Shown one piece after another: positions 25,649 to 31,600 of a stretch of 64,000 nt of DNA; position 1 is the stretch's first letter, and the number at the start of each line of letters is the position of its first letter. The position numbers were made by a program, and so were the translations under genes. The DNA is from Metridium senile (Eukaryota; Cnidaria; Anthozoa; Actiniaria; Metridiidae), in contig OX459095.1 in NCBI GenBank assembly GCA_949775045.1, positions 28,795,064-28,859,063 on the forward strand. The letters are read 5' to 3'. Under the pieces are notes generated by a model. The model ran no database searches and was not told the DNA's origin. It saw nothing but the letters and a program-made list of their open reading frames with translations.

Positions 25649-28600
25649 GTACGAATAATCAGTCACTATCATGATCAGTAGTGTTCATCTTGTATCATTT
25701 CTAGCTTATTCCTTTGAAGATGTCTTTATTATATACACCTATTTCAAAAATGGTTGTCGCAATCAAAGCTACAGTCCACACTCTGAAGCCTGCAAAGGAT
25801 GTCTGTATTTCTTCTCTTGTTATCGATTTATTCATAGCATATTTTGGTTTTACGTGTTTGTGTTATATGAACATATTAATTTCCTGGATTGGTGGATGAT
25901 GAAACAAATATTTCTTTAAAAACCTTGAATTAAATAACAAATTATGTTCATATTACCGACATCCTTTGCAGGCTTCAGAGTGTGGACTGTAGCTTTGATT
26001 GCGACAACGATTTTTGAAATATATGTATATATTTCTTATACTGGGCTTCCTGTCATTAAGCGCTGACCGAGAGGGCTAGTGTCAGCAAGAAAATAACCTA
26101 TCAAAAATAACCTATCAAAGATACCGCGTATGCAATCTTGAAAACAATATCATTACCATATATGGTATTGTAGGTGAAAAGTAACAAAAGACTTTGATTA
26201 GCGCGCGAGATTGTTTTATTTTATTTTTTTAACAGGTTGAGATTGCAACAGAACAATAGGCATATCTTTGATACGAAAGCAGTTTTTAAGAAATGAAATA
26301 CGTCTTCTGTGTTTCAACACGCTTATGTAAACCGAGATGTGCTCGGGAGAATTCGAGAATAGATCAGCCCAAACACAGGACGAAGACGAGTGATTGGACC
26401 TGCTCGATAATTCTCCCAAAAGCGGAATCGTAGTTTTTCATAAACCTGTGAAAGCGTACACAGAAGACATGCTTTATTTCTTATATAAAATAATAATCAC
26501 GCGAAACGACAAAAAAAATGCCTTTTTATTCGTTTGACGATGTCATTCCTCCCTACGTTACATAATCTAGAAACTGACCAATAAGCGCACCCGAAAATTA
26601 AAACAAGGCAAAAGCTGACTGTTGATTGAGTGTTCGCGCTCGAAAATGGCGTGCACGTGTTCGTGCTGCCATGAACCAGTTTTGACCAATAAACGCGTTA
26701 CTACTATTGCAGTTATTTTACAATCAATTGTCCAAAATAGTCAGCATATAAGTAAATGGGATAAATAGAATCATCAACATTTCACTTAGTAAGCAATCAA
26801 TTAAAAAACGGTTATGTTATGTTGTGCCTTCTTTGTTTGTAGAAATCCTTAAGTATTATGGTATTGATCATTTACTGCTAGCCACACCGCTTAACAAAAC
26901 TGTTGGAACGAATGCCGTAGGACCAGGGGAAAGCCTTATTCTCTATTGTGAAACACGTAGTGATCCTCAAGGTGCTTACAAAAAAGACTGGTTTGTCAAT
27001 GGCAAACTTTTAAGCGATGGTAATGGTGTATCCATCAACCAAACCGGTGGACAGCTCTTTGTAAAGGATCCTAGTGAAGATAAACCACGGTATTGTTATT
27101 GTTCTTGATATTATCTTTATTGCTATATATATAGTTGGTGTGCATTATTGTTATTGCTGCAATCGTTTTTGAATCGTTGTTATCCGTTATTATTATCACT
27201 ATCGTTGTCGTTATTGTTCATATATGTCATCACTATCATTATAATTTTTACCGTAGTCACTTACAAAAACTTTTGATGAATTTTTGACATTATTTTGACA
27301 TTTTTCTCATCTCAATCGGACCAATTACAGACATCAAAGTTTCTAAAGTCTCCGCCTCTCTAACCTGCATAGCTGGCCCTGGGGGATTGGGGAGAGAGGC
27401 GGAGGGATTGGGGAGAGGAGGGGAGGGGAGGGGAAGAGAAGGAAAGGAGGGCCTGCCCGCAAGTCCATGTATTGTACATGCTTACGGTCGCTGGCGACCG
27501 TAGACGCTGATTGGCTCATTCTTAATAACAAATGATTGAAAGATATTGGGATAGGTCATGACGAAAACCAGAACACATTCATTCAGCTTCTTTGCTTTTA
27601 AATTAAACATGGTAAATGTTTATATATAGTTTTGGTAGTGGACGGCGAGTATTACTCAACTTTCAAGTAAGATAAATTCTTTTGTCCTGACGACAGCCGA
27701 TCTATCCGATGAAGCGGTATGCTGTTATAATATTAGGTCCAGCGAGATTTCTCGACGAGCTGAAACTCTTTCAATGTTCATCAATCTAAGCTACATTTAT
27801 TTCCACACTTTGTTCCAAGCTAGAGTGGAATAATATAGTTTTGAAGATGAAACATCGGACTTATCAGCTTTCTTGGTGAATGATTCGAACTGGTTTTATT
27901 GTTGTATCACATGCAGCCGTGGATTATACCGTGAAGGTTCGAATTACAACCGTCTCTGTATTCTATGAGGGTGTACAATGAGTCGTATCACTGTGTGTTT
28001 CTGTTATTTATGTTTAGCTTTGAAGGGTCGTATCACTGTGTATGTCTGTTATTTATGTTTAGCTTTGAAGGGTCGTATCACTGTGTGTTTCTGTTATTTA
28101 TGTTTAGCTTTGAAGGGTCGTATCACTGTGTGTGTCTGTTATTTATGTTTAGCTTTGAAGGGTCGTATCACTGTGTGTGTCTGTTATTTATGTTTAGCTT
28201 TGAAGGGTCGTATCACTGTGTGTTTCTGTTATTTATGTTTAGCTTTGAAGGGTCGTATCACTGTGTGTTTCTGTTATTTATGTTTAGCTTTGAAGGGTCG
28301 TATCACTGTGTGTTTCTGTTATTTATGTTTAGCTTTGAAGGGTCGTATCACTGTGTGTGTCTGTTATTTATGTTTAGCTTTGAAGGGTCGTATCACTGTG
28401 TGTGTCTGTTATTTATGTTTAGCTTTGAAGGGTCGTATCACTGTGTGTTTCTGTTATTTATGTTTAGCTTTGAAGGGTCGTATCACTGTGTGTTTCTGTT
28501 ATTTATGTTTAGCTTTGAAGGGTCGTATCACTGTGTGTTTCTGTTATTTATGTTTAGCTTTGAAGGGTCGTATCACTGTGTGTGTCTGTTATTTATGTTT

Positions 28601-31600
28601 AGCTTTGAAGGGTCGTATCACTGTGTGTTTCTGTTATTTATGTTTAGCTTTGAAGGGTCGTATCACTGTGTGAGTCTGTTATTTATGTTTAGCTTTGAAG
28701 GGTCGTATCACTGTGTGTTTCTGTTATTTATGTTTAGCTTTGAAGGGTCGTATCACTGTGTGTTTTTATTATTTATGTTTAGCTTTGAAGGGTCGTATCA
28801 CTGTGTAGTGACAAGTGACATGGGGAAATTACGTGGTCGTTCTAACAATGTCAAATTCAAAGGTATTTACAACTAGACTAGTCGTATAGTTCTAATCTGA
28901 CTATTTATGATTTATATTTTATTCAACTCGCTTTCTTGGGCAATGTCGTTAGGCTCCAATGCAAATAAATAGAGGACTGATTAATGCATAATTGCGCGAA
29001 GATATGCGTGAGTTTATTTTAGTGCTCAAAAATATTTCACGAGTGACCACGGTAAACGACAATCGAAATATATCTTTTTTATACGAGAAGATCAACTTCA
29101 TATCTTCAAACTGCATGTGTAGTTTTCTACATTTGCCTCTCATTTTAGGAATGCAACTAAAGATGCAATGAGAAAGTTTTGGAAAACTTTCAAACCCTTT
29201 CTGCATACAAAAGGTTCCAAGTCAACTAATGATATTGTTCTAAAGGAAAATGGAAAAGTAATTAAAGACAAATCCCAAGTGACACAAATTTTTAATGACT
29301 ACTTTGTCAACATATGTTCAACTAGTGACTCAATTAACTCAGACAATTTAGATTGCCATCCAAGTATTTTATCCATCAAGGATTTTATGATTTCCAAGAA
29401 AAATTCACAAGACTCTCAAGATACTCAAGCCTCTTGTAATCATTTATTTGACTTTGACTTTGAGAAGGTCTCATGCTTGGTGGTGTCTGACATCATAAAA
29501 TCTTTCAAGACATCTAAATCTCCTGGCTTTGACAATAGAGGGATTCTTGACGTCAAAGTAACTCTTGTAAATCAGATTACCTCCATCTGCAAGTCTTGCT
29601 TTTTTCATATTAGAAACATCTGGAGGATCCGAAAATATATTTCTATGGAAGTCTGTGAATCCCAGGTACATGCTTTTATTTCAAGTAAACTAGATTTTTG
29701 TAATTCCTTGTTGTACGGGGTACCGAATTACCGAATTCAGAAATATTTTATATACATATTATATTTTTTAGCCAATTTATCACTAACTTCTCTATTTTAT
29801 CATTTATCTATTTTAGCTCGCTCAAACTAGCACCTGTGCGCTATCTATTTAGTGAGAACAAATAAAGATTATTGTTTATTGATTGATTAATAAACGATCA
29901 GATGTGTTTTATGAAGCCGTTTCAGCCGTTTCAGACCTGATAAAACACTGACAATCTGCGAATTTATCAAAAACACCCGGGAATAATTAACGGGGCTTTT
30001 TTTAACACTCGACCTCTTTGTCGTATTTTGTGCAGTTTGGTTTATATAATAAAAACAAAAAGATTACACGGTTGTTTGAAGATATGAATTGTATTTTCTC
30101 CTGTTCAAAATTATTCCACTCGTTCACTACGGTCATTCGTAAAATATCTTTTTACCACTCAAGATAAAAATCATAATTTTGACCCACGTGTAATATCCTC
30201 TATATAATAACTATTGCTGATTACTTCACTCGATTATTTTGGAAAATAACGAACAGAAAATATTGAATGCTAATTATGAATTATTCGCCGAAGGCGAAGT
30301 GGTTATCGGGCGAATATTTACCGAGCGGCGAGGTAAATATCCGTCCTATAATCACTTAGCCTGAGGTGAATAATTGTTTTAGTATATACATAATTCACAA
30401 CCGAACAAAAAAATAAAGAAATAAAAATTATTGTATAAAATGAAAATTGATTGCGTAATTATTACAAAGCGTGAGAAGACGCACGACCTTCAGCGGTAGA
30501 TATGGTCTAATATACCGAGATAGCGAACCAATGAGAGCACGCGTTCTTATGAGGTCGTGAATTGTGTATATACTAATTTAAGATATGCAAAAAACAACAG
30601 ATAACCACTACTGTAACCTATCTTTTCGATACTAACCGTTCTTATCAATAATCAATTTTATGTGTTTTTAGTTTTGGGTGAATTTCTGTCCAAATCTCCA
30701 ATCACATACAGCGTAACAATCAACCGCCCTTTGATTATTAAATGCCCTTCTCAAACGTACACATATGGTGTGTCCTATAGCTGGTATAATGCATCAGGTC
30801 GGGCAAGTCTCAAATTTGATAGCAATCGAGTGGTCATGGATTCCAATGGAACTCTTTACTTCTCTCAAGTTACTACCCAGGATTTGGAAGATTTTTTCTA
30901 TGCCAAGGGAATACAGTGTAGGATGACGATTGGTAGAGATGTGAAGTTTTCCAAACCAGTCAACTTGAAAAAAGTGGGAAGTAAGTACATGTACCTTTTC
31001 AAAAAGGTTGTTCTTATTTTGCTGCATGTGCATTGCTAAATACAAAATGTGGCTTGCCTGATGTTTTGACAGTTTGTGCTTTCCTCTTTTTTATTCTCTC
31101 TCTGGCTTATCAAGAGTCAGGCAGTATATGTTCGGTTCTAACGTATCAAAGATATGCCTATTGTTCTGTTGCAATCTCAACCTGTTAAAAAAAGAAAAGA
31201 AAAAAGTCGCTCGCTAATCAAAGTCTTTGTTACTTCTCACCTACAATACCATATATGGTAATGGCATTGTTTTCAATATTGCATACGGTTTCTCCAATTC
31301 GTCACTATACATTCCTTTCAAATCGTTATCGCGGCCTAAGCAACAGGCAGCTAACAGCCAAGACCCGAAATGAATGTTGGTTTTGTGCTGGTTATATGAA
31401 CCTCGTTCCAAGGGCTGAGGTTGCTGGTTATATGTATAGTTGAAATTATATTTATTATCAACAAAATTGATGATAAGTACCTCAAAATATTCACATTTTG
31501 TTACTACTTCGAACTGTTTAGAAAACAAGTAGATTTGAATATATTACCAAGTGAACACAAAACCAGCATTCTTTTCAGTCTTGGTTTGATGCTTGTTGCT

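Follow-up and report, generated by a model that had tools for sequence, protein, structure and literature searches.

A minisatellite carrying 18 copies of a 3' splice site in an adhesion G protein-coupled receptor gene of the sea anemone Metridium senile, and the acceptor most likely to be used

An immunoglobulin (Ig) exon on chromosome 1 of Metridium senile begins within a tandem array in which its 3' splice site is present 18 times, and the question is which of these acceptors the gene uses. The window analysed is a stretch of 64,000 nucleotides (contig OX459095.1, positions 28,795,064 to 28,859,063); all positions given here are counted from its first letter. To judge from its predicted domains the gene is an adhesion G protein-coupled receptor (GPCR). 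An earlier, sequence-only reading had offered two answers: either the last acceptor is used and the rest are ignored, or upstream acceptors are used as well and produce a ladder of variants of the Ig domain, Ig1. We think it probable that the array is a minisatellite of the type described as a 'mirage' in amphioxus, with the last copy (28783) as the main acceptor and the other 17 copies tolerated as intron.

The array was found by Tandem Repeats Finder (TRF) at 27982-28806 on the plus strand, with a period of 45, 18.3 copies, 97% matches and 0% indels. Each unit joins 21 intron bases, ending in TTTAG, to the first 24 bases of the exon. A string search gave 18 exact occurrences of TTTAGCTTTGAAGG at a step of 45 bases from 28013 to 28778, so that there are 18 intact acceptors whose first exonic bases lie at 28018, 28063 and so on up to 28783 (28018 + 45n). 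At 27982 the array opens within sequence of exon type, GTCGTATCACTGTGT, so that its first copy is partial on the left. No variation is seen among the 18 copies in the 24 exonic bases or in the last 14 bases of the intron; the handful of variants between copies all fall within the first seven intron bases. The last copy carries two changes found in no other, which bears on the exclusion of boundary copies from homogenisation. A search of the genome (389 Mb) with the array DNA matched only the array itself, in a search that skips simple repeats and common words.

The frame of the exon at 28783-28862 is open over the entire array, within an open reading frame of 313 codons (27935-28876) that contains no stop. 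The array of about 18 in-frame units had been recognised in the sequence-only reading, and TRF, the acceptor count and the open frame all bear this out. Test splices from 27089 to 28738, 28693 and 28018 gave stop-free exons of 125, 170 and 845 nt. Choosing an upstream acceptor would add, in frame, 15-residue units of FEGSYHCV[F/C/S]LLFMFS at the second cysteine of Ig1, as had been proposed. The Ig1 domain is interrupted directly before the strand carrying this cysteine by a phase-2 intron (cg|C), and use of the last acceptor would give KPRFEGSYHCVVTSDMGKLRG at the junction.

An indication of which acceptor is used comes from Exaiptasia diaphana. Two protein searches, in which 7,999 and 7,997 candidates were scored, returned one clear ortholog, LOC110252281 (2054 aa); others may have been missed. 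This protein aligns piecewise and in order over 25.5-59.1 kb (tblastn), is identical to the joined exon model at 395 of 792 aligned positions, and carries PF16489, PF01825 and PF00002. At the Ig1 junction it is contiguous, with a single copy of the motif (NRFEGSYYCIVTSDGGKMRG) and no insert, which corresponds to what the last acceptor would yield in Metridium. Because the ortholog reads through with one motif copy, splicing most likely goes mainly to the last acceptor and leaves the other 17 copies in the intron, and the alternative of a single used acceptor is favoured by this comparison. The exons and repeats of the gene considered here are as follows.

25523..25648, plus strand: exon with an EGF-like label given by eye (GQCTKEDFGYCKNGATC...GLQCES); splice-compatible open frame, weakly homologous to residues 8-59 of Exaiptasia P0001
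26843..27089, plus strand: exon Ig1a, ending in cg (phase 2), donor gtattg; joined exon model, tblastn
27090..28782, plus strand: intron between the Ig1 halves, 1693 bp with the last acceptor; exon model
27982..28806, plus strand: 45-bp tandem array over the 3' splice site, 18 acceptor copies; TRF, string counts
28783..28862, plus strand: exon Ig1b (FEGSYHCVVTSDMGKLRGRSNNVKFK), 80 nt with the last acceptor; tblastn with P0001, FEGSYYCIVTSDGGKMRGPTIEVKVK, 65% identity
30672..36269, plus strand: later Ig and FN3 exons (30672-30980, 32310-32418, 33231-33421, 34661-34778, 35208-35338 and 35970-36269); Pfam, tblastn
38360..38601, plus strand: boundary-spanning duplication of an FN3-exon acceptor, 120 bp x 2; TRF, exon at 38541
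47615..55754, plus strand: GAIN, GPS and seven-transmembrane (7TM, secretin family) exons; Pfam PF16489, PF01825 and PF00002 over cut-off, tblastn

Ig, FN3, GAIN, GPS and secretin-family 7TM modules were matched by Pfam above cut-off on the plus strand, together with a SEA match below it. The order, with GAIN, GPS and a secretin-type 7TM region downstream of adhesion domains, identifies the predicted product as an adhesion GPCR. The nine well-defined exons of the Ig1 region, with the exon at 28783 included, are 80-309 nt long and are separated by eight introns of 429-1809 nt.

To compare the acceptors, a matrix was derived from the gene's 25 other scored acceptors; of 30 candidates, four could not be placed clearly and were left out of the scoring. 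The last acceptor scored 8.69 bits, the highest of the 18 and seventh of 26, and the 17 upstream acceptors scored 6.44-7.40. The upstream units thus score like real acceptors, so nothing local would forbid their use and the last copy is slightly favoured. Together with the test splices, this makes it plausible that every unit is a candidate acceptor, as the sequence-only reading had it. A chance AG at 27737 scored 7.85, exceeding the upstream units, and so the matrix by itself proves little. The resulting exon would be 80 nt long with the last acceptor and 845 nt with the first. A preference for exon size bears on splice-site choice under exon definition, and this would point to the last site. 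Tandem acceptors of the NAGNAG type, in which several in-frame 3' splice sites lie close together at one exon start, are familiar; in Metridium the spacing would be 45 nt instead of 3 nt, with 18 candidate sites.

From the array, its acceptor copies, the frame, the identity of the gene and the one-unit ortholog we infer which acceptor is used, how the array expanded and how it is tolerated. A 45-bp segment over the 3' splice site of the adhesion GPCR gene would have been duplicated in tandem and then expanded to 18 copies through multi-unit slippage or unequal exchange. The last copy (28783) would have retained its original role as the main acceptor, and its splicing to 27089 would produce an ordinary Ig1 domain. 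The 17 upstream copies would be tolerated as intron, and a unit that is a stop-free multiple of three would make an occasional mis-splice mild. Duplication of a whole exon was ruled out, as the unit holds merely the first 24 exonic bases; that type is seen elsewhere in the genome, at a locus (L009) where an EGF exon and its flanks are repeated (182 bp x 3.2).

Some features of the array bear on its growth. Variant bases match most often between units that lie five units apart (9/13; p 0.005 by permutation, for one lag out of nine tried), a hint that the array grew in blocks of about five units (~225 bp). A decayed nineteenth unit to the left of the array (27937-27981) was considered on the strength of a suggestive local alignment and dismissed as unproven. 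The alignment score was reached by 28, 38, 72 and 216 of 500 dinucleotide shuffles for flanks of 90, 135, 201 and 882 bases, respectively, and the segment in register was matched or beaten by 61 of 756 intron 45-mers, 477 of 9004 window 45-mers and 228 of 5000 shuffles. Retention of the frame is not taken as a sign of selection, since a stop-free multiple of three is expected by chance at about 0.23 (1/3 x 0.68), and the copies are probably too similar to have had time to lose it. Likewise, we do not claim purifying selection on the 24 invariant exonic bases; the variants are few and recent expansion explains the invariance.

Arrays of this kind have been described before. Mirages are a named phenomenon of amphioxus, known from Adh3, the globins BflGb6 and BflGb9, troponin C and PGBD5 (PMC3087553, PMC3902484). 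In the Metridium array each tandem unit joins the end of the intron to the start of the exon, if the last acceptor is taken as the true border, and the 45-bp unit lies within the published range of lengths (10-72 bp in Adh3 and 150-160 bp in BflGb6; PMC3087553). In amphioxus many units keep their splice signals and the authentic copy lies at the exon (PMC3087553, PMC3902484), as is proposed for Metridium. Regular splicing is reported there to be undisturbed in Adh3 and the globins, by reverse transcription PCR (RT-PCR) for the globins (PMC3087553, PMC3902484), and is likewise said to be undisturbed in troponin C (PMC3902484). Mirage copy number varies across haplotypes or assemblies, somatic instability is reported for Adh3, and a model of intron gain has been proposed (PMC3087553, PMC3902484).

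The Metridium array differs from these cases in several ways. The host is a cnidarian and not a cephalochordate, and there are 18 copies, compared with 6 and 3 for the two haplotypes of BflGb6 and 2-7 and 3-6 for the PGBD5 assemblies. The 45-bp unit is a stop-free multiple of three, and none of the 18 acceptors is disrupted; in the amphioxus arrays described in these papers many units, though not every one, keep their signals. The amphioxus globins have been studied by RT-PCR, whereas the Metridium array is known from its sequence. In human segmental duplications, minisatellites of variable number also occur at exon-intron boundaries, with 27 intron modifications recorded; the variable repeats that alter genes have, over exon and intron cases combined, a mean unit of 30 bp and a mean of 4 copies (PMC2812944). 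By forming novel introns these human repeats can cause alternative splicing, and 66% of the intron modifications also have the alternative transcript (PMC2812944). The Metridium intron, by contrast, is assumed to be older than its array. The sequence-only reading held a tandem array across such a border to be very unusual; this is not supported, given the amphioxus mirages (PMC3087553, PMC3902484), the human boundaries (PMC2812944) and a second case in the same gene. The kind is already known; new here are the cnidarian host, a copy number above that of the BflGb6 and PGBD5 cases, and acceptors that are all intact and in frame. Among the titles listed from the open-licence literature, where a single search named cnidarians and one listing covered 20 of 80 papers, none announces a boundary-spanning repeat in a cnidarian, which does not prove absence.

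Several points weigh against the last copy as main acceptor with the others intronic. Every upstream acceptor outscores 12 of the 25 other scored acceptors of the gene. The comparison with Exaiptasia depends on a single clear ortholog that is a database protein record, and its intron may simply have no array. Additionally, for amphioxus PGBD5 one gene model of the Joint Genome Institute does position an exon within the repeats, although no mRNA supports it (PMC3902484).

The main alternative is that the gene employs several of its 18 acceptors and so makes a family of Ig1 variants that stay in frame and carry n extra units, possibly with regulatory or diversity value. All 18 acceptors are intact, their scores lie within the range of real sites and the array frame is stop-free, although such a frame would arise by chance in the proportion given above. 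The donors on either side of the array and exon, 27090 (gtattg) and 28863 (gtattt), are two of the three without G at +5 among ten donors read, and the human boundary repeats with an alternative transcript (PMC2812944) would also speak for it. Set against this, the Exaiptasia ortholog has one unit, and the insert would repeat a cysteine-bearing strand and a hydrophobic stretch. A protein search with the translated array gave one candidate and none at E<=10, though minor isoforms would seldom appear among deposited proteins. With one extra unit, the Pfam scores of Ig1, all of them under their cut-offs in Metridium (Ig_3 21.9 against 30, I-set 21.5 against 23.7), changed from 21.5 to 19.8 bits for I-set and from 21.9 to 21.8 for Ig_3, and a weak Ig_2 match (16 bits) was lost; this outcome is mixed and has no discriminating power. 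Taken together, we regard the use of several acceptors as unlikely. It is similarly doubtful that there is a graded Ig1 series in 15-residue steps whose repeat number and isoform range vary between individuals or within a long-lived clonal animal.

It is very improbable that the exon truly starts at the first units and that 845 nt is its normal length: the 313-codon open frame would allow this, but the repeat is missing from the Exaiptasia protein and no database protein resembles the translated array. Slighter still is the chance that the repeat number is wrong through collapse or expansion of the array, for although there is a single assembly and short reads make near-perfect copies difficult to assemble, the units show an ordered variant pattern and a HiFi read normally extends well beyond 825 bp. 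The Metridium senile assembly jaMetSeni4.1 was made from 59-fold PacBio HiFi reads and has a quality value (QV) of 55 (PMC11362738).

The second boundary-spanning repeat of the gene is the 120-bp duplication at 38360-38601. Its copy-1 acceptor (38421) runs into an in-frame TGA. With arrays of period at least 10 considered, two of 26 scored acceptors (those in the 45-bp array and the 120-bp duplication) and none of ten donors lie inside an array. Such arrays make up 6.8% of the gene span, which predicts 1.8 overlaps among the 26 acceptors, or 1.0 with both arrays left out of the coverage, the base rate being that of this gene alone. The two overlaps are thus near the expectation from repeat density (1.0-1.8). 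An array of period at least 10 lies within 200 bp of the Ig match at 5 of 30 Ig loci, L009 among the five; some of the 30 overlap or are near-identical.

Other repeats lie in the same region. A 99-bp x 4.8 array at 35417-35892, in the intron after donor 35338, has a 165-codon open frame and is also a multiple of three; no splice border was placed over it. A TTAC microsatellite of 44 copies (37485-37659) ends 20 bases before the acceptor at 37680. Direct repeats 5,512 bp apart, and three to four copies about 1,930 bp apart, occupy 1713-19871, and there are weak Ig-like matches on the minus strand at 2741-2923, 8253-8435 and 19713-19883. Reverse-transcriptase-like open frames at 20432-21794 and 29123-29830 were assigned by eye to a non-LTR (long terminal repeat) retrotransposon, the second of them fragmentary and lying in the intron that follows Ig1b. 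A basic stretch, RPQKRKRRS (PKKRRRRS in Exaiptasia), is encoded by the FN3 exon at 38541. The cytoplasmic tail exon has an in-frame 138-bp x 2 duplication (46 residues) at 58508-58782. Near the end of the receptor tail there is an in-frame TAG (59055-59057), after which the sequence is still Exaiptasia-like (LQRYLEETNSV, compared with FERYLQETNSV); this may reflect an exon border, a polymorphism or an early stop that arose recently.

Even if the last acceptor alone is used, 18 near-identical in-frame acceptors would be an unusually clean natural experiment on the choice of a 3' splice site. The site chosen could be the first to be transcribed, the nearest to the exon or one set by exon length, and every outcome would leave a readable, stop-free product. 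The array extends boundary-spanning minisatellites from lancelets to a sea anemone, and the presence of two cases in one gene suggests that they follow repeat density rather than lancelet biology.
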